Of a stretch of 64,000 nt of DNA, positions 7,831 to 47,489 are shown one piece after another. Under the pieces are notes generated by a model. It was not told the DNA's origin and did not search any database. It saw only the letters and a program-made list of their open reading frames with translations. The stretch lies in contig JBAJFE010000014.1 in assembly GCA_037903355.1 (NCBI GenBank), positions 248,001 through 312,000 on the forward strand. Direction: 5' to 3'. How positions within the stretch are numbered: the first letter of the stretch is position 1; each line of letters opens with the position of its first letter. Origin of the DNA: Trichuris trichiura. Taxonomy: Eukaryota > Nematoda > Enoplea > Trichinellida > Trichuridae. A program made the position numbers and the translations under genes.

Positions 7831-7875
7831 CAACTGTCTGGATCTTTGGATTTCATTAAGCTACATTCTCAATTA

Positions 7876-10262: not shown

Positions 10263-10812
10263 TCAGGAAAGGCGACATGCTTTGAGTGATGCAGTATGCT
10301 TTTGCTGCATATGAAACGCGCAAACTGATTTATATTACATTTTAATACAAGAAATGCGAACAATGAATGGATACATAGAATTGCCGGAGAACATGTACAC
10401 TTCATTTTAATCAGGTGTACCTAAAAGTGCACGCCTCACGAAGGAACATTTCCACGTTGGTCATACTTCAATATTATTACGCATTAACAATTAGCCAAAA
10501 CAAGGTTTCTATCAACAGGAGCAGATTCACAAAACCCCGTTTTGTAAGGCGCCTTTTTGCCGCCTTATTTAAAATCACGGAGCTTTCATTATGAGCTTTT
10601 CACGTGCTAAGTCGTGTATATTCCGACTCGTTCAAGCTTTTCAGCCATGTAGGCATTTACACTTCTGTAATAATCGTTTAGTAAATTCAGGGGCACTCAG
10701 ATGCATAGAACTAAAAGACGTTCTCACCATTCATCGAATTGAACTAATACAGTCACACCCGAAAGCTCATCCGCACAGAGGAAGGAAATCATTTACATCT
10801 CAGGAAGGTTTC

Positions 10813-11023
10813 GAAAATGTGGTTTCTTCGTACGGGACCGTATGTTTTCATAATGCAAAGGTTTTATTACGGAATAGTCCCGTTTTAGTGCGCGTAAACT
10901 CCGGAGCTTTCGGGTCGACCGGGACCCGTCTTTCATAACCGCTGAAGACGGGTCCCGGTCGACCCGAAAGCTCCGGAGTTTACGCGCATTAAAACGGGAC
11001 TATTTCGTAATAAAACCTTTGCA
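10813..11023. mobile_element. Fold-back element, Penelope-like family A
   Basis: A 211-bp non-coding element flanked by an exact 13-bp direct repeat (tcaggaaggtttc at 10800-10812 and 11024-11036). Long inverted arms (10854-10925 and 10946-11023, nearly perfect) start TGCAAAGGTTTTATTACG. A one-sided tag lies outside the left arm; its reverse complement reads ATGAAAACATACGG then TCCCGTACGAAG. A hammerhead-like core lies at the inner edge. The left arm of the tRNA duplication has the unoccupied site. The traits (target duplication over 10 bp, inverted terminal repeats, one-sided extension, hammerhead motif) match Penelope-like elements; that assignment is inference, as no ORF is present. Confidence 0.75.
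10939..10976 (+). ncRNA. Hammerhead-ribozyme-like motif
   Basis: Order of elements: CCG (stem I), CTGAAGA core, stem II CGGGTC/GACCCG with a 6-nt loop, then AAAGCTC and CGG (stem I 3' strand, pairing with the first CCG). The tiny A-GC-U stem III resembles the minimal type-I hammerheads reported in Penelope-like elements. Caveat: the C after CTGAAGA can pair with the G of GAAA, so the core register is not textbook. Confidence 0.55.
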
Positions 11024-11267
11024 TCAGGAAGGTTTCATCTCACAAAATAGTGGCGGACTGATGGCGACTCCATCTTGCATTGTTATTAAAAAATGCGTTT
11101 ACGCATACAGCTATCAACTGAATACATTGGGCCATAAACAGCAGACTAAAAAGTTGACATGTCCGTATGGGATAGCCAGTAGCTCGTAGAGAATAAGCAG
11201 TTTCGGTTGTTAGACAAATGGAGAGCAGCTTAAGCAAACGGTGGTAAACTATAACCGCCTTTGCGAT

Positions 11268-11340
11268 CGTCCACGCAGGAGGTCGAACCTTGGACATTTA
11301 GGTTAAAAGCCGAACGTTCTACCGACTGAGCTACATGGGC
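11268..11340 (-). pseudogene. tRNA-Lys pseudogene, right arm
   Basis: Mirror of the intact Lys gene at 6665-6737. The TTT anticodon remains, but there are changes in the acceptor 3' strand (GTGGACG), the anticodon stem, the D arm (AGAACGTTCGG) and the T stem, breaking several pairs. Confidence 0.8.
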
Positions 11341-11753
11341 ATACAATGAAACTGCATACACGTACAAATTTCTTTGAATCAGTGAACATGGTTTCCGTAA
11401 GAGTCAGCTTCGCTTAAAACAAGACTTTCAGATAACGTTAGTCATGAAAGGTCAGCAGAGTGCTACTGTAAAATCACTAACACTACTTATCCTTAAAAAA
11501 ATAACCTGGTCTTCATTAAGGTCATGTTAATACTCACATATAGTTCAATTGAACGCTAATGGCCTTCTATCAAAGCGACCTGCAACGGACGTGAATTTGA
11601 TAGAGGAGAATTCTTCCCCACGTATGCAGATGGTGCAAATACGACGTGTTCAGTAGAGTACTGATAAGTGGACATACAATTTGCCGTTTTGAAGGAAAAC
11701 CAGCTTAAAATAAATCAACATGCAGAGAAGTCCCGTAAAATAGTCTGTCCATC

Positions 11754-11810
11754 GCGTAGATGGTGTAGCGATCTAAGCAGTCAATTCGGGTTCGACTCCC
11801 GGTCTACGCA
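11754..11810 (+). pseudogene. tRNA-Gly pseudogene lacking anticodon arm
   Basis: Perfect acceptor and T arms of the Gly gene (GCGTAGATGGTGTAGCG ... GGGTTCGACTCCCGG), but only 57 nt long: about 15 nt covering the anticodon arm are deleted or scrambled. It cannot decode. Confidence 0.9.
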
Positions 11811-12066
11811 ATACGGTCTAAAGTTTAACCAACATAATAAACCGCCGTGTGAATAACCATCTGAACTTTACCCAGCACGAATTTTAAATATTCCAACTTA
11901 TGCAGTTTGATAGTTCACATGCAAATTTTCACATCGTCCGTTTTGGAAATTCCGACAAATTTGTAATTTCAAATAGCTCCAACAATATTGCCATTTTCTC
12001 TTCCTAAGCTATCACTTCAACAATAATATTGTAGGCATAGTGGAACTATAGTTAAATCAACGCTTT

Positions 12067-12140
12067 TGCCTTAAGCCCGGATTCAACCGGTGGCACTTAG
12101 ATCATCAGTCTAACGCTGTCCCTACTGAGCAATCGAGGCT
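12067..12140 (-). pseudogene. tRNA-Phe pseudogene with altered anticodon
   Basis: Mirror of the intact Phe gene. The anticodon loop reads CTGATGA, which puts GAT in place of GAA, and the T stem and acceptor carry several mismatches (for example TTAAGGC for TCGAGGC). Confidence 0.85.
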
Positions 12141-12257
12141 CTTGTTTCAACATATTGCTAAAGGCAAAACTTAAATACACACGGTTATTACATGCGTGGC
12201 AAAGCAAAGCAGTAATATTTACTCTATGAGCTTTGCCTTGTCGTTGGACGTAAATAC

Positions 12258-12335
12258 GCCACTGAGGTAAAATGGTTAAGGAATTGGATTTCAAACCCAA
12301 TGGGCTATATTTGCACGGGTTCAAATGCTGCCCGG
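12258..12335 (+). pseudogene. tRNA-Ser-like relic (UCA anticodon), right arm
   Basis: Ser-type signatures GGTTAAGGAATTGGA, loop TTTCAAA (TCA at the anticodon position), CCCAATGGG and GGGTTCAAATGCTGCC. The acceptor stem is not closed. Both mirror copies share TCA where serine tRNAs have NGA, so the change predates the duplication. Confidence 0.6.
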
Positions 12336-12693
12336 AAGGATGTAGCAAACTATTCCGTACATTTTCAAGTTATAAATGCAACCATTTCGCAGAACGGATG
12401 CCCGCATTAGTTCTACCTTACTTACTGTTAATGCGCAAAGGGTACTCATGTTATAAATCATTCAAATTAAGGACGCTATGGAAAACAGAAATGATCATAA
12501 AAACACCCTTGAAGGTATAACTCACTAAGAATTCTTGGGAACTGACGCCAACCTTTTGTAATTCAATCCTTCGTTCAATAATTAAAACAAGCACATATCT
12601 GCTTCGTTCAAGGCAGCAATACAAGCATGTACAATTTTGAAGAAAGTGCGCACTAATGTTAATAATTTAAAAATATGAATTCTTAACTACTTC

Positions 12694-12774
12694 CCTGTGG
12701 ACAGGATTTAAACCTGTGCGGGTACAATCCATTGGATTTCAAGTCCAACGCCTTAAACACTCGGCCACCACAGC
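12694..12774 (-). tRNA. tRNA-Ser (TGA)
   Basis: About 81 nt with the long variable arm of a class II tRNA: GCTGTGG acceptor, GGCCGAGTG D region, anticodon stem-loop TTGGA-CTTGAAA-TCCAA (TGA), T arm CAGGTTTAAATCCTG, closing CCACAG. The terminal acceptor pair is G-G. T5 just downstream on the minus strand can terminate Pol III. Confidence 0.9.
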
Positions 12775-13253
12775 GCGGACTAACACATAGCCCTCTGAAC
12801 ACACGAAACAATCTACCCTAATATATGATGCAGTAATTAATAACCGGAAAAAATTAATCGTCGTATTTCATTGAACCGCATAGGTCAGCAAGGTAAGAAA
12901 AGCTTTTCTTATGGTGACGGTCAATTCGGCACAACAATCTTCGTTCAATTAACGCCTTATAGATTTCTTCCTTTTTCGTCAGTTCCAATAAAAACCGGTC
13001 CTTTACAACCATGTGACTAGAATAGGACTTACCTTCGCTGTGCTCTGTTTGGTCAATATTTCTACTAATACTTCGTTTCTGCAGCAGCAATGCTGCTAAA
13101 CTCTTGCCACAAAGGATTACGGCTTAAGCTGCGATACACAAAATAAACTAAGTGTAATCATGACAAAAACATCATAAAACCACCATATCAAATAAACTTT
13201 AACACAACCAATGTCTAACCTATGAACTCATTCTTGCGATTACATATTAATGT

Positions 13254-13335
13254 GCTGTGATGGCTGAGTGGCTAAAGCGTCTGGCTCGAATTCCTATGGG
13301 TATTACCCACCCAGAGTCAAATCCTATCCACAGCA
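13254..13335 (+). pseudogene. tRNA-Ser-like (CGA), degenerate
   Basis: Starts GCTGTGATGGCTGAGTGG and ends TCCACAGC, so the acceptor is nearly intact and close to the Ser gene 480 bp away in opposite orientation. The anticodon loop CTCGAAT would give CGA, but the anticodon stem has two mismatches and the T stem fails to pair at three positions. Most likely a pseudogene. Confidence 0.7.
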
Positions 13336-14158
13336 ACATAGAAAACTACGGTTATTTTGCAGGTTTTAATATCAATGCACTTTTCTTGAAATTTCTGCGT
13401 TTCCTTTATTGAACAAAGCAGGCATACATTAAAGTATAATATCTGCACCTGCCGTCTACCTGTAGTCTATTGCATAAAACTGTGGCACTAAACAAATAAC
13501 CTTCCCACATCATATTACCATAACATTTCATAAATGGTATATTGCCTACCATAAGTAGTCTAGCAGCTAGAATAGATGCAGAAGACAGAATTTGATGACT
13601 CTGAGGAGCCTGAGCGTTAAAAGATAGGTGACCACTCTGCACTGCGTGGCTGATTACCACAACTTCATATATCGATCGAGGATTCACTTTCCAACTACCG
13701 ACAAGCTTTGTAATAAGTGGGAACAAACGGTTTGATAGAAATGCTTTATTCCGACACTGTTACCAACCTAAAGTCGTATAGTATGTCAAGCACAGTAGCG
13801 TGATATTTCGTCATATAGCTGGCAAAAGTTTTGTTATAACTCTTTTGACGTAGCATGCACGGGATCAGCTCTTTCATTACAATCTCCAATGCATTCTTCT
13901 CTATCATGAATATTTGTTCGGAAGCCCGCTAAATAACGCAATAATTTACACATGATAAGAAAACAACACATACCTGTTAACTGAGCTTAGAATCCTGAGA
14001 ACTACAGATTATCATATTACCCTAGCAGTGGACAGCAGAAAAGCTATTCAACCAAAAAGTTTAGTACTAGTTGCTTGCTAATTCAATTAAAACCAAAAAT
14101 ACAAGCTTTTCAGTCAAACAAATAGATAAAAATAGAAAAAAGATAGAAAGGACAATAC
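13336..14158. other. No assigned gene; may hold 3' exons of the BAR gene
   Basis: The BAR-domain gene is transcribed toward this stretch and needs further 3' exons. Two open frames lie in that direction (13406-13726 and, beyond the tRNA, 12854-13090), but neither has a recognisable domain nor clean splice sites joining it to the BAR exon. Confidence 0.4.
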
Positions 14159-14699
14159 CTTTGTTTCTGGTTCATGGTATGCTTGAGCTGATGCTGAATG
14201 AGCAAACTTGAACCTTTCGTGGTCCATATCGAGAACAGCGTTTTTCAGGGATTGTCTCACTTTCTTAAACGCAGTGTATTCTTCTCTACCGTTATTCAAC
14301 ATTTGCGAAAGCACATTCTGTCTGATCTCGGCGGATATACTTTTCGATATTTTAACAATTGCCCTTAGACATGCAGCATAGCTGGCAGCGCATTCCATCA
14401 ATTCACTGCCCGGTACAGCTTTTGCAGCCATTTGTAATGTTGCCTCTGCTAACTCTGTCATTTTTGCTTCTTCATCTTCCGCACAACAGAATTCGTCTAT
14501 TGCCCCATGAAGCTGAAAAGAAAGCATAAGTTAAACGTCCAAGACAATGTAGCATCCGAACCCATTCTGTGCAGTCTTTGAATGCTTGAAAATTGTATAG
14601 GCTATTTTTTGTGCGCAAATCCAATTCGGTCCTTTCTATCCTGCCTAAGATGTAGTTTATCTTAGTGTACAGGCGCCTAAGGCACTGCTTAGGCATCGC
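14159..14699 (-). CDS. BAR-domain protein (two internal exons)
   Basis: Exons 14562-14699 and 14159-14512 (minus strand), both phase 0, joined across a 49-nt GT-AG intron. They encode about 164 residues of a BAR domain, the crescent-shaped dimeric membrane-curvature module. The first exon reads LRRLYTKINYILGRIERTELD then FKDCTEW, like the start of endophilin-B or RICH/nadrin BAR domains. The second has TELAEATLQMAAKAVPGSEL, KISKSISAEIRQNVL and FKKVRQSLKNAVLDMDHERF, the conserved central helix with basic residues. The N-terminal amphipathic exon and everything after the BAR helices (SH3 or RhoGAP) were not found, so the subfamily is open. A donor (GTATTG) follows the last exon. Confidence 0.7.
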
Positions 14700-15053
14700 C
14701 TGAACGATGGCCAATTTATTCGCACAGCTTTAAATAAGCTGAAATGCCTAACCTTTCTACACAATTCCAATGCGTTTACAACACAGCAAAGCGGTGGGCA
14801 TACAAAGTTTAAAGTTAAAGTATATTTGAATAGTATACATATTCATACTTCACACTTTGCGCAATAAGTTAAGAGTCGAAAAACACTAAGTTTAAAGTTC
14901 ATCTGCTACAAAGAAGGCAACTAAGCGGGAGCGTTTAGGAATATAATACTTCCTGCGGTGCTGCGATGAAAAACAATTCACAAGCGGGCATTTACTGCAT
15001 TTTTCCAAAAATGGATGCAACATGGCGCCTTTTCAACTTTACTTGGTGATAGA

Positions 15054-22802: not shown

Positions 22803-25800
22803 ATGGAAGTATTTTTAGCATTCCATTTTCTAATAATCCTCTTCCCTGTGAGTATTATTCACGCTATTGCGAGATCAAGACAAAGAATCTTAGTTTTAGG
22901 TGTTTGAAATCGAAGGAAAAAACCTAGAGAGAAAAAGTTATCCCTGCGGCGTTGCTGCTTTCAAGCACATATTAAAACGTCGAAAAGAAGATAGAATTGT
23001 CAGCGGGTGGGAAGCGAAACGAAATTCACTACCTTGGGTTGTGGCAATCTTTTGTAAGGAAGACAAAGTTTTAAAGGTTTCCTGTGGAGGAAGTATTATC
23101 AACGCAGAAAAGAGCAATCAATCAAACTTGGTGTTGTCAGCCGCGCACTGTTTTGTGACAGAAAGGTGAGAGCAACTATTACTTACATTTGCAGCTCAGC
23201 GCATTCGTTACAATACTTCGCGTTGGCACAGAGAAAACAGTGAATTCAGAGGAAAGCAAATTAGGAATGCATAATAGCATGCGCTCCACCTGTTCGAGCA
23301 AATCAGTCTACACGAAATTATTTTACTCGAAGGTTTTAGCAGGCTCTTGAAAACGTTTAAACGTTAAGAAACTTTGAAATCAAAATGAGATTTGAAGTTT
23401 GCTTATTCTTTATAACAGTGTCAGAGACTCAGCAAGCTTTTGCCCCTATTTCTTAATTTTCATACTATTTCTATTAACACTATACACAATTCTTGTCATC
23501 TGCCTTTATTCAGCAAAGTTTTCGACAAAGCAAAAAAGTACTCCGTTGTCGCTGGATTGCACGACATTAGAGAACAAAGCAGTTCGACAATACAGCGAGT
23601 CCAGGTTAAAGATATTGTACATTTGGACTACGAAGCTGACATTATGCAAAATGACGTAGCCCTCGTGGTTTTGGAGAAGCCACTCCTATTCACTGACTCT
23701 GTTAGGCCAATTTGCTTGCCAAAATTTTTCGCTTTCAGAGTACCATCGTCAGAGTGCTACATTGCTGGATGGGGAAACACGAACGGTGAGAATTGATTAC
23801 AAATCTTCATAGCCCACACAGATAACGTTTTAAACGATGTAATGTGCGTTATTGTTTGGACTGTTTGCATGGGGCTTGTCCCATTGAAAGATACAAAAAG
23901 ATTTTAATGGTAGGCCCTAGCTTTTGAACCGCGCGTGACCCGTCCTCAGAGGTACTAAAAATTAATGTGACAATTAAAATTTGTAGTACCTATGAGGACG
24001 GGTCACGCGCGGGCCGAAGGCTACAGCCTATTAGTAAATTTTTTGTATTTTTCAACGGGACAAGCTCTGTACAAACAATCCAAGCATGAGACGCAATGGT
24101 CCCGTACCAAAAAGTTGTATTTCCAAAAATCTACGTTCTTGGGTAAACTGTTGAAATATGACCCTTTCCACGGGGCGCAGGAAGTTCATGATATTAGCAC
24201 AGCATAGAACTGGCTTTTGAATTTCAAAAAGGAACAGATCGTTCAGGAAAGACTACCCCATCTTCGCATTATACCTGATGGCACGAAAGTTTTCTCTGAG
24301 CGCTTCTTTCCTATTTAAACTTCAATGATCAGTTTTATCTAAAATTAATGTTATGAGAAAAACGTCATGTAAGTCACCATATGACCATTTCTGAGTCAAG
24401 TTTCTGCGCTGATTAATGCTTTTTTCTCTGTTATTTACATAACTCACTATAACTCGTTTTATAAAATATGAGTGGCTTTTCTCGTTAGTCTGGTAGTCGG
24501 TAAACCAGTTTCGCTGCTGCTTCAGGTATGTTTTGCGCAAACAGTTATACTGCGTAGATAAGCAAAGTGTAAATTACCTTGACCGCGATCGAACTGCTTA
24601 TTTCACTACGAAAACACACCCACGTTAATGCCTACGTCTTTTGAACATTCAGGTGGTTGCTCAATGTTTAGCAGCCGCATGCTGCGGCATTTCCCCTTCC
24701 AAAATCATTCACACCTACTCCTGCTGGAGTGACGTAACTAGTCTGTTTCAGAACTTCCTTCCTCTCCTTTGCCCACGCTAAATTCTGCCAGTTTCTCTTA
24801 GAAGTTACTTGCGGAGCTACGGGTCATTAGTCTTCTATGATGACTACTCTGCCGTTAGCCTTTCCTGGTACTCATGTTCAACAACCCTCTGCGCGCGCCC
24901 CTCTGCCAACAGTCGTCTATCTATGAAGAAAGTTAAGCTGGGCAAAGGCAGAATGTGATTTTTAGCATGCTTTTTTTCGCCCATCCTATTCTAGCGTTAC
25001 CCTAGTTAAATCGAAACGTAAGCTTTATTTTTAGGTTTAGGTTCAAGTAAAGACGGAACATGACTACCAGCGTGCTCTTCTCTCTGCTGCCCTGTTTTGA
25101 ACCAACCCAAGTTCACGCTAAATGCATAAGTCTAAATTTAAGCACAAGAATAAAGCTTGTTTTTCTGCTTAGGCTTAAATAATCGCAGAAGAGGACGGAA
25201 TTGAAAATCATGTTCTGCCTCTACGTAAACCTAAGCCTAACCATAAGATTCACGTTCAGGCTGCGTCATAGCAGGACGTTGGTTGGCTGAGAGGAGCCTC
25301 GAGTAGTCCTGTGAGGTTATCGAACATGAGAATCACTAAAAGCCAGCAGCATATCGAACAGCTGAGCATTTATAATGTGCTCAGAATCAAACCGGGCATT
25401 AATCAACGGAAGTAAATGAAAGAAAATAAAACTAGCTGACCTTTGTCGCCAAAGTCGAGGTTTCAGTGCACAGAGAAACTGCTTTTCGTGGTACTTAATG
25501 GTATTTAATGGAATGCTTCTTGGTGGTAGATGCTATGAGAAAAAAATTTCCCTAAATACAAGGAAAAATTATTAATCTTTAAAATCATAGAAAGCAAGTT
25601 CATTTTTATCGACAGCATGCACATGAAATTTAAAATTCTCATTGCTAATTTTCCAGGTGAACCGAGCCCTACTTTGCAGGTGGCAACCATTAAGGAGACG
25701 GACCATGAACAGTGCGTACGCAAATATGGTCACGACTTCAACATTTATCAGCAAATTTGTGTGGTGGTTCCTAAAGGTGGAAGCGATGCTGACAGGGTAA

Positions 25801-26635
25801 GAACCCGCGAAAGCAAACGTCCTCTCTTCAACTTTTGAAGTAAAAATATCAAGTTTTCATGTTAACCTGTTTCATTTTACGGAATGTGTGTCCCGTTAAA
25901 GATACAATAAAATTTTATTCTCTGTAGTTTCCGGGCCGCGCATGATCCGTCCTCAGCGGTGTTAAAATTCAAAATTACGAATTTTAACACCGCTGAGGAC
26001 GGATTACGCGCGGCCGGAAAGTTAAAGAAAATAAAAGTTTATTGTATCTTTGACGGGACACATTCCGTAAAAAGAAACAGATTAGCATGAAAATCTAGAG
26101 TCCCGTACCGAGAAGCTACGTTTTTAAAAATATCAAGTTAGCCACGCCCAGCTACAAATGCAATGCAGACAGCGTTGTAAATTATGCAAATGCAAAGGCA
26201 TCCATTATTTCTAAGTGAAATATTGACAGTGTGAGTTGATAATAAGACAGAGATCTGAACATCAGCCGTACAAAATGCAGACAAGTTTTATAATCATTCA
26301 GTACGAACTTCTGTAAAATAACATTTCCGTCTATAAACATGTTCCTCATGAATTACTGCTAAAGCATCAAATATAAGCTCTTCTGCTACTCATACTGCTG
26401 TAATCCATTTTAAACTATGGTATTCACTGCTCAGCAAATTGGCTTTACTGACACAAATGTGCAGGGCGATTCTGGCGGACCATTTTTCTGCGAGTCCGGT
26501 GGCAAGCAATTTCTCTATGGAATAGTAAGCTATGGAGCATCCTCACGCAGCAAAATATCTGGTAGCGTCTACACACGCGTGTCAGCCTTTTTGTGGTGGA
26601 TACAAGAAATGATAAGAACTTATGGCATAGCATAA
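22803..26635 (+). CDS. Secreted trypsin-like serine protease (S1A)
   Basis: Five exons: 22803-22847, 22900-23165, 23514-23785, 25657-25796, and a last exon starting at 26435 (or 26465) and ending 26635; about 297-307 aa. A hydrophobic N terminus (MEVFLAFHFLIILFPVF) is a signal peptide, so the protein is exported. Cleavage after R47 (DR|IVSGW) would activate the zymogen. Catalytic triad: H98 in LSAAHC, D151 in NDVALV, Ser in GDSGGP (about residue 254). Cys pairs for the 42-58, 136-201 and 168-182 bridges and the propeptide bridge (PCG with PICLP) are present. The usual 191-220 bridge is absent: no Cys precedes GDSGGP and none follows in SYGASSRSKISGSV. Introns 3 and 4 each contain a fold-back element. 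The acceptor of the last exon is ambiguous (10 residues). Confidence 0.9.
23855..24131. mobile_element. Fold-back element, Penelope-like family A (intron 3)
   Basis: Long inverted arms with a short AT-rich centre, GGGGCTTGTCCC near the left end and CGGGACAAGCTCTG near the right. The one-sided tag follows the right arm (ATGAGACGCAATGG then TCCCGTACCAAAAAG). Both arms carry degenerate hammerhead-like cores (CTGAGGA on the minus strand near 23943, TGAGGACGGG near 23992). A decayed direct repeat (tgcgttattg/tacgttcttg) flanks it. Inside the protease gene, presumably spliced out. Confidence 0.65.
25856..26125. mobile_element. Fold-back element, Penelope-like family A (intron 4)
   Basis: 270 bp between exact 14-bp direct repeats aaaaatatcaagtt (25842-25855 and 26126-26139). 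Arms share TTTTACGGAATGTG, GTCCCGT and AAGATACAATAAA. The tag lies on the right: ATGAAAATCTAGAG then TCCCGTACCGAG. Near the inner arm edges are cores CTGAGGA + CGG...CCG + GAAA (minus strand 25922-25960; plus strand 25989-26025), but both lack the following GCT, so ribozyme activity is unlikely in this copy. Confidence 0.75.
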
Positions 26636-27213
26636 AGTCACGCAACACAAGCATGATGGTGGAGGCGGCATTCCGCTTTCTTGACCTACGTATTTTCAAG
26701 CTATCGTTGGATATTGACGATGATAAACTATTGAAGAGATGATAAAACGTCTTGACAGTTTTAGCGGATTGCGACATTACCGTTGCGTTCGATTGCGCGT
26801 GAGCTCAAGCGCCCTTGGCGGATCAGTTTTTGAAGGAAGGAAAAGTCTAGATTCCTGATGAAGTCAGGCTTTTACGTGAAACAAAAGCTTGATTTCGAAG
26901 GACACATATTCAATTGTAAATAACGACTACCTTTGAAACAAGGTGGTAATACTGCACACACATACGCAAGGGGGACAACCTGTTAATGTTAATAGTTTTC
27001 ACCCGATGTCAATGGGTTCTGAACACTGTTGACTCCCAGTGACTACTTGAAAGGTTATCAGTGCACTGCTGCACTTAGCTTGAAGTGCTTACCAGTTAGT
27101 GTGCAAAACAAACCTAACAAAAAAAAAGTATTTAAATTACTTTTAGAATTTTATGCAGGTTGTAGGAATTGCAATAAAGGCGCAAAGACAGACTTAGAAA
27201 ACTGGCGCAGCAT
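26636..27213. other. Convergent 3' intergenic region
   Basis: Sits between the ends of the protease (plus) and synaptotagmin (minus) genes. I see no gene or clear repeat. Confidence 0.5.
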
Positions 27214-28494: not shown

Positions 28495-28574
<80 letters not shown>

Positions 28575-30592
28575 GTTAAAATGTTGAAAGAAAGCACAGT
28601 GCGTTTTAACCATTAAAACTTAGATAGTTCTAATATACACAGTGCGCTGTCCTTTTTTACTGATGTTGTACGCTGGAATTATTCAGTGAGTTCACTAAAA
28701 AACGGTTACGTTGGATATTTTAAAGTTTTAGAGACTCATGAAGCTATGATCATTGATATGCTCGTACATCAAAACTGCAACTTTTATAGATCTGAAAAGC
28801 AAGGAATTATGAACAACTAGATACAATCAATTAAACTAGCTAATTTTTTGAAATATAAATTATGTAAAAACCTCCCTAAAAACAACGTCTAAAGCAGATC
28901 CTACCTCCTATGAAGGCTTGAAGTTTAGTTTACCTCTGAAACTCATTTTGGGAATATTCGCACTCAAACGACTGGACTTGCAATGGCGTCCGTAAGCTGA
29001 TGTTCCGCGAAAAAGTCTACAAGTGCTCGAAACGTAGCAGTACATTATAGACGCAGCATGCGTACGCAACTCCGCAAATAACCTCGGGTTCATACGAAGT
29101 ATCAGTGACAACAGAACTCAATTTTTCAGATAATACCTTTAGAAAAATTCCACTTACGTAATACACAAGAAAAACAGTGATAATTTTAAGATAAACGCTA
29201 TTTAAACATAAACGTTCTGGGGCTTAATTTAGTTCAATCAATATTCACATTCATATTTTTAGACGAACATTTATTATCACAGATTTCTCAAAGTTTCGAA
29301 AGACTGGATGTCTTTTAACAGGCTTGAGTTGTTCCATAGTAGATCTTCAGATTCACGGGTTTGACCTGTTGGATGTATCTGTAAGTACACTTCAAAATGC
29401 CCTACCAACGGATGGATGAGCAAATTGTACTTACAATTTGCTCATCCATCCGTTGGTAGGGCATTTTGAAGTGTACTTACAGATACATCCAACGGGCCAA
29501 ACCCGTGAATCTGAAGATCTAATATGAGATTTCTCAAAAAGATAAGGAATACAGGATGTAAAAACCATTTGAGCATTTAACCAACCGTTCAAGCATTTTA
29601 TTATTGAGGATTTCTCAAAAAGATAAGGAATACAGAATGTAAAAACAAATGCAACAAGAGAATAAATTATTAGTAAAGTAAGAAAGGTAAACGGAAGATA
29701 TAAATTTATTAAGGACTTATGTTGACAGCAATCGAATGTTCAACAGGTGGCGTTACACAAAACTTCAGACGCTCACAACTTACTTCAAAAGTAAAAACTT
29801 CATCAAACTTCGGATTCAACGTTCTTCTCCTCGTCTTCGTTTGAGCAAAACACTTGTCACCAAAAGGGGACAGATAAACCCTAAAAGCTTCGTTCACATT
29901 GTAGTAGAAGCTACAAAGAATAATCACCGCTAAGTCATGAACTTTCCCAACACGCAACAATTGGCACTACCGCGCAACAACAGTCTCAGAATCCCCTTTA
30001 AGAAAGTACAGCAAACAAAAATGTTCAACAAATCTGGATACATACAGAGATTTGGGAGATTAAAGTACAAAAATTTTTCTGAGTAAACATGGCGACATTG
30101 TTTAAAGAGATATGCAAAAATTTAGACAGATTTCTGCTTTCATGTCATGATGACAGAAACATTATCAGTAAAGACAGTGACCACATTTCAATCTACGCAT
30201 TCACTTCACTTTAGGTGTGGTAATAACGCTAGCAAATTCACCTTTGTTGATTCTTGCGAATAAGTCAGCGAATACCAAATACAGTCTAACAAAACAATCC
30301 ATACACGATGCATAGACTTAAGCGGCACGAACGTTTAAAGAGCAGTACTACGCCTACCGGAGAAAAAAGTCGTTAGAGTCACGTAAACGATCTGCTGCAC
30401 TACAGGGAGAAGCTTCGGAGCGACAAGGCAAGTTTCTCACTTTGTCCACCCAAATGGACAACTTTTCTCGCTCTGCGTCGAATTCAATTTCAAACCAAAT
30501 TCGACCAATGTGATTTTCCCCATAGAAGTATTCATCGCCTTCACCAGAGACGTACAGTTCAAGATTCAGAGATTCAATCAGAGACCTTTCAT
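27214..30592 (-). CDS. Synaptotagmin-family protein, tandem C2, 5' end missing
   Basis: Six minus-strand exons with consistent phases: 30358-30592, 29784-29910, 28244-28414, 28057-28177, 27591-27761 and 27214-27344. They encode about 318 residues with two C2 domains. C2A runs from GRIWFEIEFDAEREKLSIWV through TKTRRRTLNPKFDEVFTFE to LKIVAYRIDAFKRIV. C2B runs from SELHCSLVYNNSIERLTLTI through VYLKVELCLGTRRIKSRK, RSPIFNESFNF and DQASLIILV to the terminal WHFLTE, matching the WHxL end of synaptotagmin C2B domains. Calcium-loop Asp residues are mostly missing: SDPY is EAF or GVY, and the third loops read AYRIDAFKRI and VCQSKPDK. It should bind membranes or partners without calcium, like Syt12/14/16-type members. 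The transmembrane exon(s) must lie upstream, beyond 30.6 kb. Confidence 0.88.
28494..28572. repeat. (AAT)n microsatellite
   Basis: About 26 uninterrupted AAT/TAA triplets within a synaptotagmin intron. Likely length-polymorphic. Confidence 0.97.
29341..29520. repeat. 180-bp near-perfect palindrome related to family B
   Basis: Two arms of about 89 nt with a 2-nt centre (GCAAATTGTA-CT-TACAATTTGC). I count only two mismatches. Each arm contains CCAACGGATGGATGAGC, also found in the elements at 40.4 and 45.7 kb, so it belongs to or derives from that family. Lies in the intron between the 29784 and 28414 exons of the synaptotagmin gene. A direct repeat (TTTCTCAAAAAGATAAGGAA) follows at about 29528 and 29610. 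Confidence 0.85.
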
Positions 30593-39020: not shown

Positions 39021-39089
39021 GTTACGAAAAAATAACGCGCTAAACGCTAAATAGATATAGATATCCGTTTAGTGCGTTATTTTGTAAAC
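39021..39089. repeat. 69-nt imperfect hairpin
   Basis: Arms GTTACGAAAAAATAACGCGC and (reverse complement) GTTTACAAAATAACGCACTA continue through AAACG to a short AT loop. It could be a tiny MITE or a small structured RNA; no target duplication is evident. Confidence 0.6.
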
Positions 39090-40029
39090 AGAATCACTGT
39101 GCACATATATACCCTTTGGCGCATATACGTATCTACTTATGTAATGATACCAGCTAACGAAAAAACAGAAAATGTTAACAAAACACTTCTTCTTTCCTAC
39201 CTAAATATCCCAAGGTTTTAAAAGTTTTAAGAAAACGTTAGAAGTATCAAGAAACAGAAGGAGTGAAGAAAAAATCCTATAAAGCGCCAAAAGGCATACC
39301 TGCTCTGAGGAAAAGGTCGATCCAAGCAAGGAAGCAGCTTTGATGGTTTAGTAACCGCAAGAATTTATAGCAATTTTACGTTCAGTCTTTTTCAAAACAA
39401 GCAAAATTGATGACAACAAAAAGCACTTCAAGGTGAAAGAGTGGGAATCGATATTGAGCATTCAGGCTCAGACGCCTACTCGCATACTTTAAACAATACG
39501 TCTGATTGACAAGCTGTTCAGTGATACATTGATAAGGTCTCATCTTCATGCATTTATCGCAGCTTAATGGTTTGCACTATTCAACTTCAGCTGCAAAATA
39601 AGCCGTATATTTATAAAGAAAAGTTCACTGTGAAAAGCAATTTTTATACAATTAGAATTATGAACTGATGCTTTTTTGTCAACACCGAAAGAGCCAGTAA
39701 AAACCTGTCATCCTTAGCTCGCCGTTGCCCTTTGAGTGGGCAGATGTTGTTAAGATAATTGAAAGTGTAGGCGTGCAAAACATTGTTCCATAAACAATAC
39801 AGAAAGTAAAATAAAAAGAGAAATCTGGTAGTGCGCATCTGTCACCAACACTAATAATATTAATGCTTTCTACAACTTCAATACTTACTACTTTGAATAT
39901 GTATGTTCTTTTCATAATCGGATCACCGTTATTGGTGAAAAAGGTTGAAAATTTCCCGTTGTGCATAACAAAAATGAATCAAAGCTTTCATAATATCTCA
40001 TTACCTTTCACATACATATATATGAGCAT

Positions 40030-40126
40030 AGTTTGAGTATGGAATGTTTAACCCGTGAAATCTTTTTAATGAGCAAAGCTTTCGGAAAGCCACTGTTCCC
40101 GTCTTCAGCGCAAACGTGATGGCCCC
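40030..40126 (-). mobile_element. Minimal Penelope-like insertion with hammerhead motif
   Basis: About 97 bp flanked by a direct repeat of about 15 bp (catatatatgagcat at 40015-40029, repeated with one extra TA at 40126-40142). It lacks long arms but contains the hammerhead-like core at 40073-40111 and AACCCGTGAAATC near one end. It looks like a 5'-truncated or solo copy of the family. The AT-rich repeat makes the duplication less certain. Confidence 0.55.
40073..40111 (-). ncRNA. Hammerhead-ribozyme-like motif
   Basis: Minus strand: GCG, CTGAAGA, stem II CGGGAA/TTTCCG with loop CAGTGGC, then AAAGCTT and TGC, which pairs with GCG (one G-U). Same layout as the motifs at 10.9, 40.5, 45.4 and 45.8 kb, with different stem sequences. 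Confidence 0.5.
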
Positions 40127-40372
40127 ATATATATATGAGCATTTTTAATACACTAAAATGACTACTGTTTCCATGTCCATCATACTAAACGCGCTTATAA
40201 CCTTAATATAAGTTACATTGCATTAACAAATCACACATCGCAATATGATGCAAAAAGTTAAGTAAAACGCTTCTTATAGGGTATTCAAACTAGAAAAAAT
40301 GGCTCAAATAAACTTTACAGGCTTGACCGGATAGAATGCATAAGGTGAATGAAAAGTATAATATCTGAGCGT

Positions 40373-40742
40373 GGTTGTAAGGTCTTCAACGGCTTTTCCC
40401 GTTTTTTGTTGTGCTGTTATCTGTAATTAAACTAAAACAACTGCTCTACCAACGGATGGATGAGCCGTTATTAAGAAAATGTACAGATATCAATACACTC
40501 AACTTTTAATGTTCAGAGCTTTCGGAACGCTCTAGTTCCGTCGTCAGTGAGGTGGTGGTGGTGGAGCATTAAAGAATTGAGTGCGCTGATATCTGTACAT
40601 TTTCTTAATAACGGCTCATCCATCCGTTGGTAGAGCACTTGTTTTAGTTTAATTACAGATAACAGCACAACAAAAAACGGGAAAAGCCGTAGACGACCTT
40701 ACAAACATGAAAATACAGCCCGTTACAAAACATCCAGTTTTC
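40373..40742 (-). mobile_element. Fold-back element, Penelope-like family B
   Basis: 370 bp flanked by exact 13-bp direct repeats aatatctgagcgt (40360-40372 and 40743-40755). Outer arms of about 130 bp are nearly identical (ACGGCTTTTCCCGTTTTTTG, CTACCAACGGATGGATGAGC, ATGTACAGATATCA). The one-sided tag lies at the right: ATGAAAATACAGCCCGTTAC then AAAACATCCAGTTTTC. A unique loop contains the hammerhead-like core and a GGT run. Non-coding. Confidence 0.8.
40513..40550 (-). ncRNA. Hammerhead-ribozyme-like motif
   Basis: Minus strand: TCA, CTGACGA, stem II CGGAAC/GTTCCG with loop TAGAGC, AAAGCTC, TGA (pairs with TCA). In the loop of the family-B element. Confidence 0.55.
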
Positions 40743-42709
40743 AATATCTGAGCGTAATGAATTGAAAAAGCCCAGATAGTTGCAATGGCAACTTACGTAC
40801 ACAACATGCCCAAAAATTTATAATCAATAAAAGGTTTAAAATTACTTAGAACTGAACTTGTTATTTGCACTTTATCCAATAGCAACATAATCCTTCAACA
40901 CTGTTGAATTAACAGACCTCCCACAGAAGCCGACAAATAGCTACTGGTGAACACCTATTTGAAGAAAAGCTCATCAGGGATTTCTTCGTCAATAAAAGAA
41001 GAGAATTAGGTAAGTATTAACCCTGAGGGATTTCACGTCAAAAGATTAACCATCGCACAAATTCACCCCGAGGCAAATTGAACCTGTTTCAAACGCTTTA
41101 ATTTGACATAGTATTTTGCAATGGGAAATCCTTTTCTAATCGATTGAACAATTTTTCCATTAAAAATGACCACAGTCTAGGAAGACAGCAACACTTGTAG
41201 AAATCGCCAAATTTTTCATCTTGAAACCGTTGCATAAATTCCAATAATCGATGTTTCTTTCTTTGGATGTTACGAACACTAACAATTAACCAAAGCAATG
41301 GCAAGAGAACAAAATCGTCTTAAAGACTGAATACCAAACAAGTGTAGAGTTCTGTTGCTTACCAAAAACTGCTCGGCCATTTGCTGTCAGAGTATTTGTT
41401 TCCTTTAATACTGGAGCAAAATAAAATCAGTAGTGCACTCGCGTGAATCAAAAACGAAAATGAAACAATAGATTTAGAAGGCATAAACTGCAAAGTATAT
41501 CAAGCGATAGCTATTAGCGCACTCTTAGAAACATGACAAAAGAAAGCCTGAAATTATCTTCGAATCGACGAAACAAATGACTACAAAAATCTGACATGAC
41601 AAGCAACAGCAAGCAAAGCTGTTCGGCATCTGATAATCGAGAAAAGCATTAAGCTGAAATACGGTGCCACATCGCTTTAAAGAAAAATCGCAACGAATAA
41701 AGATAGCTCTTCTCTACGTTACTGACTTTAACATCCCATTTAAGAACAATACAAATGTTATCATTGGTATGTTGATACCGTTGAACAATGTCTTTCTTAA
41801 ACAAAGAATGCTTCTTTCACGCCGTATAAAAATGAATTTTGCGTCTCAGTGAAAATCGTTAGGCGAAAGCATTTAGATAAACATCTGAAAACTGGATACG
41901 GACAAGGATGGATACGAAATCCACTACAATAAGGCAAAAGCAGCCGAAGATACGAAATTTTCAAAAAAGCATTTCCACCTATTTCATTTAAGCTCAGACT
42001 GTTCTGTTCATGACAAGTCGCCTTAACACTGCATCGACCACACATGCCTCGCTGAAGGTGGGACCAAATGTTGTCAAAGTTGAGGAGATACCTTCTAACA
42101 AACATTTTAATTCAAGCATAACGGCGTATCCGTAATTACCTTTCAACAACGATAACAGCATTTTTTGAAGTTGCTCACGTCCTATTCCACCTCCCTTAAG
42201 ATAAAACTAGATCGTTCTAGAAGCTCTGAAAGTTTGCTGCGTTCAGAGTTCAACAAGAATTCAGTACCCACTTCCAGTAATCGCTCATCCAACCTTTGAT
42301 AGAGCACTTGTTCTGCTTAGTTACTTACTGTCACTACATGAAGAAAAACGGAAAAACCGTTGGAGATATCATCTGAAAAACGAACCTCAACGGAAGATGA
42401 AAGAACGGAATAGACAGAACAACAGAAGGGGAAAGTGGATATTAAAATATAATTATCTTGCTTGTTTTCTTTTCTACGTTTTTGGAACCAAGCGACATCC
42501 AAAAAACTACCACATTCTTTTGTGCCTTTACCCATAGAAGTGCTTTCAGAAGTAAAAGGCGTTTCATCTTAATATTCGACTACCAAGGTACTTGCAGCCA
42601 TGAAGTCCACGCTGAAAACGGGGACAGGTGTTACCGGAAGGCTTCGCTAATCTAAACAAGCTTTTGCGCTTTGCATTTCCTTAAGCCTTCTAGAAATAAT
42701 ACAAATAAA

Positions 42710-42710
<1 letters not shown>

Positions 42711-42753
<43 letters not shown>
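42711..42753. repeat. (AAT)n microsatellite
   Basis: About 14 TAA/AAT triplets. A decayed fragment of family B lies upstream at about 42285-42360 (CGCTCATCCAACCTTTGATA, then GAAAAACGGAAAAACCG). Confidence 0.95.
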
Positions 42754-42754
<1 letters not shown>

Positions 42755-44070
42755 CCATCATTACCACTGAAGATAAAATTATTTTGAATATATCTATAGA
42801 GGTTCATATATGTTCACAGGGTTTTCCTCTTTATCTGCACTGAATCAAGCAGCAAAACCGGCAGCATCAGCATCAATACATTTCAAGAATGCGCAGTGTT
42901 AAAACTAACAAATAACTCATACGTCGAATAGAAATAATTCCAAAACACAAATTAATGAGCAAGCCATTGAGGAACGAACAATTAGCCATTCATTCGAAAG
43001 ATAATGCAAGTTCATTCAAAAGGGAATAAGCTTCCAGAGAAACACAAGTGGTCAGTAAGTATTGTTAATGCATTGATTAGTATAAGTGCTTCGTGTAAAA
43101 GCAGCAAGGCATTAAAATCACAACATGCAAAGCGCGCTAGCAAACTGAGTTCATAAATCCCAAAAGTATTTCTAGCCTTCAATTATCAATTAGCAAAAGT
43201 GGCAATTTCGGTTTGCTGCCCATACTTGAAATGCATGCGTTTCCCTTTGGCAATTCCGCTGGGCAAGGTTAAAAAGAAAAATGCGTCATTTCGTTCGGGC
43301 GTTGAGTAGCAGCTCTGCGGCAGATTAGAATATATCACGCAATAGGACGTCAGTTAATCAGCCGCGCAAGTAAGCTGCTATAGGAGCAGAGTGAATTCAA
43401 GAAACTGTTCGATCAGTTACGCAGGGCCCCAGAGCTTACTCAATTGCTCCGTAACAAACGTCGCCCAGTATAGATGTAAATGATGACAACTTACTGAAAA
43501 CCTCCAGGGGTGAACTTCAAATTGTTTCTGAGCCTATAAATTAACTCGTCACTTTTTAAGCAACGCACTGCCTAATTGCCCATCTGTGACAAGGACGCTA
43601 AACTAGAAATTCTTCGAAAGAAGTTCTAAGCAATGGAACCAACATTAAAATGACACATTCGCATTTTTACTTTTCCTGTAGTTGCGTAAAGGCGTAAGGA
43701 TGAATGACAAGTCAATAAGCAAATGTCAACTTGTACCCTCATGCAACACAATTGGACATCAGTTTAAGTGCATTTTGAATTTTTTTTGCCATAATCAACT
43801 TGCGTAAACTAGGACTTCTGAGGGAAATGATCGCAAACATAAAAAAGTAAGTACAACGCGACCAGTACGTTCAGAAACATTTCGGAATGGCCTATACATC
43901 CAACGGACTTCACATACTAGCCTGATATTTTTATGAAAACAAAATTCAACATATCACAAATGACTTTGAAAGCTCAGATTCTTTGCTCCAATCAATTCAA
44001 TGAGTAACCAAAGATAACTAGCCTACGGGACGTTTGGCGAAAAGTGATCTTAACGCAATACGTAAACTTA

Positions 44071-44143
44071 TTGCTCGCCACAATATCTCTTCCCTTGGGT
44101 TGACTAATGGTCAACCCAAAAGAAGAGATATTGTGACGAGCAA
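44071..44143. repeat. 73-nt hairpin, pre-miRNA-sized
   Basis: Arms TTGCTCGCCACAATATCTCT and (reverse complement of the other side) TTGCTCGTCACAATATCTCT pair with very few mismatches through GGGTTGAC, with a 4-5 nt loop (TAATG). Size and pairing would suit a small-RNA precursor, though a microscopic fold-back transposon is equally possible. Confidence 0.65.
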
Positions 44144-44928
44144 TTCTGAAACTTTATAACGCGTGCCTGTAGCAAATTTTTCCATTATAAAACTGATTAG
44201 TTAATAAACTACTGCAATCAATATCCAAACCTGATGAACGCGAACTGCTTCAGTAGAAACATTTCGAACAGTTATGGAGCAAGTTGAATGCAAGAAGCTT
44301 TCTCCGAACAAAGAATTATTTCAAAATGAAGCACAAAATTGGCAAACTTTGCCATTAAGATGATACCTATGAATAAAATAATAATAACGCGTGAACTATT
44401 GACAAATGGCAAATTTTGGAAAATACTTATCTTCAGATGCAGTACGCGAGAAAACATCCGGCGAATAAAGTTCATAACAACGAGGAATAAGATGCAAGGT
44501 ACAAAACGCATCAAAAAACTGTTAACGTGGTGCGATGTTTCTAGTTTGAAAATATTTTTACTCGTAGGTACTTAGCCATTCTAAAAGCTCTACTATCGAA
44601 AGAAAACTTAAGACCCAGTGCTAGCAATGAAGGAAATATGACAGCTAAGCTTTTCTATTCACTGACAACATGGGAGATTAAGTCAGGTGAGAAAACATGA
44701 TAAAAATGGACGAATACTGAACCAAAGCTGCTCTTATGAATTTTGATCAAATACTTATCCTAAACTCCCTAGATTTAGATTGGTAATTAATAATAATGAA
44801 AAAAGCATTTGCAGTGCTTGACTATTTTCAGGGTAAAACTTTTTTAAAGTTCTCGTGTGAAAATATGTGAGCGATGCAATGCATGCAACCATAGCTAAAC
44901 GTTAACAGATTGCTTTTATTAAGATATT

Positions 44929-45550
44929 ATGAAGGCGTAAGGGTCGTAACGGGTTTGGTGGTTGAACAAGAAATGTACATGGATTTTTCCCGTTTCTATT
45001 TGCCCATAGAACGAGTCAAAAAGTGAAAAAGCTTTAATGTCGTTCAAAGGCATAAAACCAAACAAACGTCTGGCGAACGACGCTCACATGGTGTGCCAAA
45101 AACAGGACTCGGAAAACACCGGATTGGACAAAGAAGATAACCCTACACGTGGACAAACGGCCCTCGCCCTAACATCGGCAAGTTGACCCATTTCGACAGG
45201 ACGCCTCACCTAACTTTGACTGACCATCCTAATACGCGTTGTGCCTCCGCTGAGGACAGCCTCTAAGGAATTTGCTCCGAAGCTGATCCAGCCGTGTGTG
45301 TATAGCCTCGACAGGTCAAGGTTCGACTAGACAGGCACGCACACGACTCGGAAAGGTGGAGGAGCTACTCCTGAGGAAAAACTCGGTGGGAGGGCAACTC
45401 CTGCGTGCGCTGATGACGGCTCAAGATTGAGCCGAAAGCTTCGCCAGACGTTTGTTTGGTTTTATGCCTTTGAACGACATTAAAGTATTTTCACTTTTTG
45501 ACTCGTTCTATGGGCAAATAGAAACGGGAAGAATCCATGTACATTTCTTG
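44929..45550. mobile_element. Fold-back element with 360-bp unique core, Penelope-like family C
   Basis: 622 bp flanked by 13-bp repeats ttattaagatatt/ttattaaaatatt (44916-44928, 45551-45563;one mismatch). Inverted arms of about 110 bp (44970-45078 and 45442-45550) share AAGAAATGTACATGGAT, AACGAGTCAAAAAGTG and CGTCTGGCGAA. A tag lies outside the left arm; its reverse complement contains AACCCGTTACGACCC. The GC-rich centre (about 45080-45405) has no long ORF. A hammerhead-like core borders the right arm. Confidence 0.75.
45407..45444 (+). ncRNA. Hammerhead-ribozyme-like motif (best copy)
   Basis: GCG, then the canonical CTGATGA, stem II CGGCTC/GAGCCG with loop AAGATT, AAAGCTT, and CGC pairing with GCG. 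This copy has the exact textbook CUGAUGA box. The same register caveat applies (first C of stem II may pair with G12). Confidence 0.6.
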
Positions 45551-45571
45551 TTATTAAAATATTGCTATATT

Positions 45572-45916
45572 GAAAACGGGGTGTTTTGTAACGGGCTGTG
45601 TTTTCATGGTTGTAAGGTCTTCTACGGCTTTTCCCGTTTTTTTCGTTGTGCTGTTATCTGTAATTAAACTAAAACAACTGCTCTACCAACGGATGGATGA
45701 GCCGTTATTAAGACAATGTACAGATATCAATACACTCAACTTTTAATGTTCAAAGCTTTCAGAACGCTCTAGTTCCGTCGTCAGTGAGGTGGTGGAGGAG
45801 TTGTTATTCTCTGAATGGTACTATATAGGCACACGTGACAATAGGAATTGGGGCGAGGTCAGCGCGGCAGTGAGCAACACTTGAAAACGGGAAAAGCCGT
45901 AGAAGACCTTACAACC
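45572..45916 (-). mobile_element. Fold-back element, Penelope-like family B, second copy
   Basis: 345 bp between exact 14-bp repeats aatattgctatatt (45558-45571 and 45917-45930). Very similar to the 40.4-kb copy for TACGGCTTTTCCCGT, CCAACGGATGGATGAGC and the ribozyme region, but the tag is at the left (reverse complement ATGAAAACACAGCCCGTTAC). The right arm keeps only its outer part (GGGAAAAGCCGTAGAAGACC). It inserted at the right-hand target duplication of the family-C element. Confidence 0.8.
45750..45787 (-). ncRNA. Hammerhead-ribozyme-like motif
   Basis: Minus strand: TCA, CTGACGA, CGGAAC/GTTCTG with loop TAGAGC, AAAGCTT, TGA. Differs from the 40.5-kb copy at two sites; one turns a stem II C-G into a G-U pair. 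Confidence 0.55.
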
Positions 45917-47489
45917 AATATTGCTATATTTGTTAAATTTCCGTTTTGGCATACAAACGACAACCGCTCATGCCATAGTGTGTCGTTGAGAGTGCGGCGC
46001 AGAGTTAATATTTATAAGTCATAATATATTCCTAAGCATCACAAGGAAATTATTTAGCGGCACATTGGTTAGCCATTCATATGCTCTTACGTAACTAAGA
46101 CATTCTTAAGAAGAAGTCATTGTTCAATGTTTTCATTAGGCAGAAACAACTGCCTTTACCTTAAAGCAAAATAGCTAATGACATGAGCTCAATATCTTCG
46201 CGATTGACCATTTTGAAACTACTAACCTTCTCGATTTTTACATCATTACTTGTAAAGGGGAATAGTGTCCATCAGCGAACGAACGGAAGTTGATCAAATT
46301 TTCGATGCAATGAAATAGCAATGAAAATTTCACCTCTCAATAAAATCGAAAGCTACTTTTCGCACTCACGAGATTGTTTGAGTCGACTCATGGCGGGAAC
46401 GTAACCTTTTCGCTAGGACAGTTATGACTGCATAACTGCAGAAACTATCTTATGTCGTAACCGATAAAAAGGAGACGAAAATGCCAACCTATTACATTGA
46501 AAGAATAGATTTGCTTCAACAACTGAATACGGTTGTAAAATCGATTTTGCCAGTTCATTTTCCAAGCACGCCATATTTAGGCTGCAATCGCCTATGCTAT
46601 GTATTAAACGAAACGGCTACGATGCCACGAAAAGTTGTATTTTCTATAGACATTCAATTCAACGAACCATTCAAAGACGACATCTTTTCGCAAGCATAAA
46701 CAGTAAATGGAACTTCGCCATTTAACCAAGTTGAGAAGAGGAGGGGTTTGAAAATTTTGAAAACTGTTTCAAGAAGCCAAAAGTCAGACTTTCCTATGCA
46801 ATTTTTCAGAGCGCCTACCGAAAGCGCGAAGTCGCGTTGATTATACGCAAACCTTAAATCATAGAGACCTTTGCTTAAAATGGATGTTATTACTCAAATA
46901 CCTTCAACAATCAATCCCCAAGTTTCCCAAGTTAGAAATGATAGAGATGGTTTAGTAAGATTGCAAACTTTGACAAATCATTGCTGACTAAGAATAATGG
47001 TCACAGTTGTTCTTATAGTGCCCCTAACGTAGATTTGTTGCAAAGTCAACGTAGGCTACTTTTAAAACTTCAGTGCTGTTATGCGCCAACTTCTATCAAG
47101 CCAACACTCTGCTCAGTAATGAGAGCTTTCCGTTAAAGTGACTAGCAACTGCTCAAGAACTTTACTTCCTACAAAGGAAACGATACGTTTCGGGGAAATA
47201 CAAAACTGAAGGCTGACCACTCGCGTTGAGTATTTTCTGAAAACACGAATAATGCACCAACGCAGTATAAACCTTTTGCTTCTCGAAAAGTAACGCATTT
47301 TTAAATTAAAGTTTTTGAAAAGGCTGGTTAAAGTAACATATGCATACGGACAAGACCAACCCGTCTGAACTACGTATGCAAAAACATGTATCCACGCTGC
47401 CGTCTTGCGCATGCAAGTTTCACCAAGACAAAGCAGTACTTTTTGAAAGCGTTCACTGAAGATAAGGCAACACGTCAACGAGCGATATA

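Follow-up and report, generated by a model that had tools for sequence, protein, structure and literature searches.

How do short, non-coding inserts that fold back on themselves, carry hammerhead-like cores and lie between variable target duplications arise in the genome of Trichuris trichiura? The question is raised by a 64-kb stretch of contig C1 (positions 248001-312000; hereafter the window), in which seven intervals were read and then tested for duplications, inverted arms and hammerhead cores. A preliminary description made from these letters alone had taken them for a family of small derivatives of Penelope-like elements (PLEs). We find that each fold-back consists of two PLE 5′ leaders placed head to head, a leader being a minimal hammerhead plus ca. 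80-100 nt up to the start of the open reading frame (ORF); one end of the fold-back stops near the ATG, and the other continues for ca. 40 nt into the ORF, as a tail. Neither the head-to-head leaders nor the regularity of one tail per insert had been recognized in the preliminary description, and the one-tail regularity is the new element of this work. We consider it rather probable that the inserts derive from PLEs resident in the same genome and are non-autonomous products, made as head-to-head leader pairs by two-sided priming.

One tail per insert

Tails were counted at loci selected by their centers only, namely the 40 loci L073-L112 and three of the first eight hammerhead loci (L001, L003 and L004), all located on contig C1. 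An inverted pair was present at 42 of these loci and absent from L111, and a target duplication, accepted at a score of at least 9, was detected at 37 of the 42 pairs. Exactly one tail was found in 36 of the 37 fold-backs with a duplication, with outward arm lengths differing by 32-50 nt; the 37th, L089, sits in a repeat and is ambiguous. If the tail were chosen independently at each end, exactly one tail would be expected in at most half of the elements. L096, whose duplication lies within an AT repeat and which occupies the same place as L048 of the tag-selected set described below, has one tail on reading. The same is true of L102 and L107, two of the five pairs without a duplication; L101 could not be scored, the sequence of L112 is incomplete, and the fifth, L078, is considered below.

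The duplications were compared with cross-paired flanks, a control from which L089, L096 and L111 were excluded. At a score of at least 12, duplications were found in 32 of 40 loci vs. 2 of 233 cross-paired flanks, and at a score of at least 10 in 34 of 40 vs. 13 of 233. Their lengths have a mode of 14 bp and are mostly 12-18 bp (among 35 that score at least 10, 34 measure 10-19 bp and one 22 bp), i.e., they are variable, as had been proposed, and not fixed at 8-9 bp. Long PLEs with a duplication carry one tail in three cases out of three (L040, L041 and L042); at L039 a clear duplication was looked for and not found.

A second set was selected by the tag, the sequence that marks the tail. It comprises 61 loci out of 82 hits, corresponding to 59 distinct sites. 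A duplication beside a tailless left end was detected at 25 of the 59 sites, with no more than 313 nt between the left end and the ATG in 23 of them. A tailed left end was scored for two sites, L064 (9 bp, AT-rich) and L135 (simple repeat), neither of which is convincing, and at L135 the tailless reading scores better. When the flanks were displaced as a control, none of the 28 computable sites yielded a duplication vs. 13 of the same 28 with the actual flanks. The remaining loci of the first eight, L002 and L005-L008, showed no close inverted pair in the pair scan. Read separately, L007 and L008 (the 10.8- and 44.9-kb elements of the window) proved to be fold-backs flanked by a duplication. 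An inverted partner is also present at L002, together with a 13-bp duplication that has one mismatch, and at L005, where no clear duplication was seen; neither feature was found at L006.

The assembly searched genome-wide comprises 72.7 Mb. The hammerhead pattern gave 4,988 matches (2,452 + 2,536 on the two strands) vs. 54 (30 + 24) for the reversed pattern, and the strict tag pattern gave 82 matches vs. 0, a search with tag plus core having been suggested in the preliminary description. Close inverted hammerhead pairs accounted for 513 strand hits (248 + 265) vs. 0 in the control; since a symmetric center scores once per strand, these hits represent closer to half as many places. Close inverted pairs are thus of the order of 250 in the genome, with both ends and the junction readable, and this number, obtained with a single strict pattern, is a lower bound for fold-backs. 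Since tag, hammerhead and inverted-pair hits are all far above their reversed-pattern controls, we conclude that the pattern seen in the window is not due to chance.

Parent elements, tag and hammerhead cores

The same genome contains PLEs with reverse transcriptase (RT) and GIY-YIG domains. The GIY-YIG profile PF01541 matched 71 places, some of which may not be PLEs, with frames of up to 865 amino acids. The long loci L039-L042 have frames of 865, 854, 679 and 654 amino acids, and RVT_1 and GIY-YIG scored above cut-off in both ORFs checked, those of L039 and L040. The opposite end of the long copies is occupied by an inverted leader, whose length varies (59 nt in L039, 377 nt in L042 and ca. 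1 kb in L041). A hammerhead core lies downstream on the same strand in 22 of 30 GIY-YIG loci examined out of the 71 and is absent from eight. In a similarity search with PLE protein, Trichuris RT proteins were the top named matches, and tapeworm, tick and insect proteins ranked lower (among the best 120 of 248 matches). As can be seen, the traits of the PLE family are present: an ORF with RT and GIY-YIG, a hammerhead in the pseudo-long terminal repeat (pLTR), an inverted pLTR, a one-sided tail of 30-40 bp and a variable duplication.

The seven window copies (Table 1) are connected with these parents to different degrees. The 10.8-kb element and GIY-YIG locus L036 are 94% identical across 121 nt that include leader and tail, which links this element directly to PLEs with RT and GIY-YIG. 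Weaker links are suggested for the 25.9- and 23.9-kb copies, whose identity to L013, in its leader and ORF start, is 73% across 151 nt and 75% across 81 nt, respectively. The 40.37- and 45.57-kb copies have only short-stretch matches to GIY-YIG loci, some of them in a separate fold-back inside L042, and no match among GIY-YIG loci was found for the 40.03- and 44.9-kb copies. These four would belong to PLEs by their shared anatomy (hammerhead and duplication, plus arms and tail except at 40.03 kb) and by related fold-backs elsewhere. A check for copies linked to a Penelope RT, suggested in the preliminary description, thus had a positive outcome at the level of the family, and it is at this level that sequence comparison assigns the inserts to PLEs.

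The nature of the tag is apparent from L013, whose leader continues into ATG AAA CTA TAC GGT CCC GTA CCA AGA AGT TAC ATT TTC AAA, which is the tag; the tail reads MKLYGPVPRSYIFKTIQG... as the start of an ORF. The frame of L013 is open across the available 254 codons and matches the N-terminal part of the L039 and L040 frames. The tag therefore corresponds, on the basis of this one locus, to the first ca. 13 codons of the PLE ORF. The start of protein P0004 is similar to the tag peptide by eye, and a strict N-terminal tag peptide motif had no match in 240 proteins from the examined loci; a search for solved structures likewise gave none. The tag corresponds to the published PLE tail, the interval between two RT start sites (PMC11167929). 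The earlier proposal that the tag is a recognition or priming signal comes close to this, although the coding nature of the tag had escaped it.

The ends without a tail lie at or close to the ATG, those with a tail at about TTTTCA, and both kinds are situated 14-28 nt 3′ of the nearest CCGTA-like motif. A stretch preceding the ATG, CCGTAATAAAG...TTTTCATT, resembles the tail stretch CCGTACCAAGA...ATTTTCA, and we infer that the two may represent a duplicated start module. RNAalifold predicted a 4-pair ACGG/CCGT stem around the start sites with zero covariation. In a longer ACGGGA/TCCCGT stem with one variable pair, this pair is standard in 17 copies (9 C-G and 8 G-C), does not form in 16 and is unscorable in two, which gives a weak hint of an RNA hairpin at the start sites.

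Hammerheads were characterized in 151 distinct cores from the examined loci, picked by the core motif. The three pairs of stem I are formed in 139, 143 and 141 of the 151 cores and the five pairs of stem II in 129-144, and helix III is reduced to A-GC-U. The cleavage position H17 is not G in 150 cores, and an extra pyrimidine is present between A9 and stem II in 148. A scan with Rfam hammerhead models, which had been proposed earlier, gave no gathering-level match in the window and, in six loci, no hammerhead match at E ≤ 5; helix III is missing from these cores. Rows for microRNAs in the six-locus scan are all under their own cut-offs and reflect hairpins. Cervera 2014 and Lunse 2017 reportedly deal with minimal hammerheads without helix III. 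The cores match the minimal form described for PLEs, i.e., type I without helix III (PMC6155905, PMC7761336).

Proposed priming on two strands and its alternatives

Purified PAc, a PLE protein from Anolis, cuts and extends both DNA strands in vitro and starts reverse transcription at two adjacent internal sites, the interval between which is the tail (PMC11167929). Two published starts and the one-tail regularity are most simply combined in a model in which the two strand ends use different starts. A PLE messenger RNA (mRNA) would have two RT start points, one near the ATG and one ca. 40 nt inside the ORF, and the PLE endonuclease would cut both target strands ca. 14 nt apart. Each cut 3′ end would prime one complementary DNA (cDNA), one per start point; both cDNAs would extend to the 5′ end of the RNA, slightly upstream of the hammerhead core, and would then be joined. 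With both starts located where the ORF begins, the part of a monomeric mRNA available for copying would be limited to the leader, and the fold-back would be the default product. Longer templates, e.g., read-through RNA of tandem copies, would yield PLEs whose 5′ end carries an inverted leader. Strand cutting, dual priming, cDNA joining and the transcript start are all steps that we infer.

A wider form of this model may be put forward tentatively, as a possibility that we hold with less confidence than the origin of the inserts themselves: PLEs would insert by two-sided target-primed reverse transcription of one RNA in which two start modules (CCGTA...TTTTCA) stand in tandem, each serving a different cut strand and used once. 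The thousands of minimal hammerheads dispersed in such genomes would then also stem mainly from fold-backs, the default product of monomeric mRNA.

The arms and the centers of the fold-backs bear on whether two cDNAs or one are involved. Among 70 arms of 35 elements, 52 find their best match in the sibling arm, which ranks within the top five of 69 for all 70; the lowest identity of sibling arms is 87%, and the median for unrelated pairs is 69%. Since sibling arms rank so close, we conclude that a single RNA, or RNAs closely related to one another, served as template for both arms. This would also be the outcome of self-priming, in which antisense PLE RNA or the first cDNA folds on a palindrome at the 5′ end of the leader, makes one continuous hairpin and is inserted. 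Palindromes at inverted PLE junctions have been read in this way in a 2013 paper (PMC3846280), and many of the centers here are palindromic. Self-priming does not, however, predict a single tail of near-constant length, as found in 36 of 37 fold-backs. Spare nucleotides were counted at 40 centers (L001 and L092 were not comparable): there are none in 14, which leaves no loop nucleotide for a hairpin, 1-3 in seven and at least four that are not in the reference in 19, some of which may be templated since some families have no PLE reference. The junctions resemble joined ends of two cDNAs more closely than they resemble a hairpin loop, and we regard self-priming as unlikely, though it deserves more weight than the remaining alternatives. 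At L110, nested repeats of the leader center, with 109 nt between the cores, look as if a junction had been copied repeatedly.

Several observations weigh against two-sided priming with one start per strand. In the Anolis system, bulk start sites are alike on the top and bottom strand, and the main text says nothing of insertions that combine one start of each kind (PMC11167929); the palindromes at inverted junctions were, in turn, interpreted in 2013 as self-priming on antisense RNA. The one-tail sample was drawn from a single contig, and one of its pairs without a duplication, L078, has no recognizable tail at either end. In the tag-selected set, no duplication was found beside the tailless end at 34 of 59 sites, and 24 of 59 have no convincing inverted partner within the stretch examined. 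The position of the transcript start is deduced from where the arms stop. Inner ends extend no more than 22 nt past the hammerhead core in the compared families, a limit that is partly built in, since the inverted-pair pattern permitted only 12-42 nt between cores. In the tag-selected set, where the measurement had no core-spacing limit and looked 330 nt upstream only, the distance between axis and end is 97-131 nt in 18 of 31 arms, less in 12 and more in one. Differences between sibling arms affect 99 of 3,387 sites (2.9%) vs. 2 of 476 (0.4%) in the duplications, a comparison biased by the fact that duplications were picked for matching. Of 71 arm differences, 48 have both variants in other copies vs. 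42% for random changes; this shared-variant test leans toward different templates for the two arms, in a cluster too mixed to be trusted.

Small units might instead have originated like miniature inverted-repeat transposable elements (MITEs), by internal deletion of full-length PLEs with inverted leaders followed by mobilization in trans. The full-length copies L039-L042 do have an inverted leader at their other end, and hammerhead hits greatly exceed GIY-YIG hits (4,988 vs. 71). One deleted master per subfamily should, however, yield copies with a common center, whereas centers differ among close relatives in the examples compared (L079, L091, L099, L105 and L109, and L074, L082 and L097), and we consider a deletion origin improbable. 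Metazoan retrozymes, small circular-RNA retroelements that are bounded by hammerheads and use the RT of another element, share with the inserts the hammerheads, the small size and the dispersed non-coding copies (PMC7761336, PMC7229834), but the 151 distinct cores here lack helix III, and the examined units have a head-to-head arrangement and a tail formed by the start of a PLE ORF, which makes this origin very improbable. Lastly, DNA transposons of MITE-like or fold-back type, mobilized by a transposase, would have inverted arms and flanking duplications, yet the duplications vary (10 to 22 bp, mode 14) instead of being fixed and the ends are PLE leader and ORF sequence (L013), so that this explanation, in spite of no search for a transposase with these termini having been made, has next to no weight.

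The window copies and the wider family

Six of the seven window intervals are fold-back inserts; the seventh, at 40030, measures 97 bp and consists of one arm only, and neither an inverted arm nor a tail was found in it.

Table 1. Fold-back inserts and the solo copy in the window. Positions are those of the window, and strands are given in parentheses.
Insert	Interval with flanks	Target duplication	Arms	Hammerhead core	Tail
10.8 kb, fold-back 10813-11023	10800-11036	10800-10812/11024-11036, 13 bp, exact	10847-10932 and 10945-11030, 86 nt, 95%	minimal, CTGAAGA..GAAAGCT, 10942-10972 (+), predicted cleavage after 10973	10813-10851 (-), ATG 10851-10849
23.9 kb, fold-back, old copy	23852-24131		67 and 47 nt, 81-83%		right, ATG 24086
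25.9 kb, fold-back 25856-26125	25841-26139	25841-25855/26125-26139, 14-15 bp, exact	84 and 36 nt, 88-92%	hammerhead-like, 25993 (+), 25956 (-)	26087-26125 (+)
40.03 kb, solo leader-like copy 40030-40128 (-)	40016-40142	40016-40029/40129-40142, 14 bp, exact, AT-rich stretch		40108 (-)
40.37 kb, fold-back 40373-40742	40360-40755	40360-40372/40743-40755, 13 bp, exact	40372-40507/40572-40707, 136 nt, 93%	40547 (-)	40707-40742 (+)
44.9 kb, long fold-back 44929-45550	44916-45563	44916-44928/45551-45563, 13 bp, 1 mismatch	44965-45077/45440-45552, 113 nt, 97%	45410-45440 (+)	left side, diverged, no ATG
45.57 kb, fold-back 45572-45916	45558-45930	45558-45571/45917-45930, 14 bp, exact	unequal, 34 nt, 100%	45784 (-)	45572-45607 (-)

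The fold-back family proposed in the preliminary description is real, with corrections. Target duplications of 13-15 bp flank five of the six fold-backs, one of them with a mismatch (44.9 kb); together with the solo copy, where the claim had been less certain, exact duplications were found in five copies, while at 23.9 kb a duplication was looked for and no clear one was detected. The arms had been said to differ in sequence between copies, which does not hold for the 40373 and 45572 copies, mutually 92-96% identical over most of their length. A tag on one side only was borne out in the six fold-backs, including the diverged one at 44.9 kb, and the tag is absent from the 97-bp copy. Hammerhead-like cores were recovered by pattern in six copies; at 23.9 kb no core matched the pattern, and a decayed one is seen by eye. 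No frame of at least 150 amino acids was found inside the inserts, which are 97-622 bp long, and they are, as proposed, non-autonomous derivatives. The left duplication of the 45572 element and the right duplication of the 44929 element overlap by 6 bp (45558-45563), and the region 45551-45571 looks like one element inserted at the end of the other.

Further PLE-like sequence is present in the window. The stretch 9288-10166, between two transfer RNA genes, aligns with tag locus L136 at 96% identity across 881 nt and contains a strict tag at 10032-10056 (+), i.e., C1:258032-258056. Ten transfer RNA genes on both strands (5895-12774) are interleaved with Penelope-like sequence at 7624-8174, 9288-10166 and 10805-11030. 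Positions 29291-29531 are similar to L042 (76%) and 47484-47652 to L051 (86%). Elsewhere, frames at 3370-4458 (minus strand) resemble a Tigger/Jerky-type DDE transposase by eye, and the window's ALG11 gene shares 91% identity with that of Trichuris suis and 79% with that of T. muris.

Among characterized systems, the inserts share with Anolis PAc a tail near the ORF start, just downstream of the hammerhead (PMC11167929). As described in PMC3846280, the PLEs of Adineta vaga and other animals (Penelope/Poseidon group) likewise have an ORF with RT and GIY-YIG, a pLTR that reaches up to or into the first ORF codons, a tail of ca. 30-40 bp at one inverted pLTR, junction palindromes and variable duplications. 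Those elements are described as containing an ORF or a captured gene, and a few unrelated sequences as lying between solo pLTRs, whereas head-to-head leader pairs without an ORF are abundant here and their one-tail pattern was counted; duplications are mostly 12-18 bp here vs. 8-10 bp there. Dispersed minimal hammerheads of animals resemble those found here in the core, the lack of helix III, the association with PLEs and the thousands of copies, but differ, as they are described, in that the dispersed copies here sit in the arms of two-ended PLE inserts (PMC7761336). Metazoan retrozymes are also small, non-coding and hammerhead-bearing; their units of ca. 150-300 bp are described as bounded by classical type I hammerheads, in contrast to the minimal hammerheads and head-to-head units seen here (PMC7229834, PMC7761336). 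In the open-licence literature, we found no report of a one-tail count or of ORF-less fold-backs of this kind.

The insertion of PLEs poses several puzzles, namely the inverted pLTRs, the tail at a single end and the many hammerheads outside coding copies. The role of dispersed minimal hammerheads was called a mystery in a 2020 review (PMC7761336). The one-tail regularity places a sharp constraint on any model of PLE insertion and fits a protein that extends both target strands, and it suggests an origin for the dispersed minimal hammerheads.

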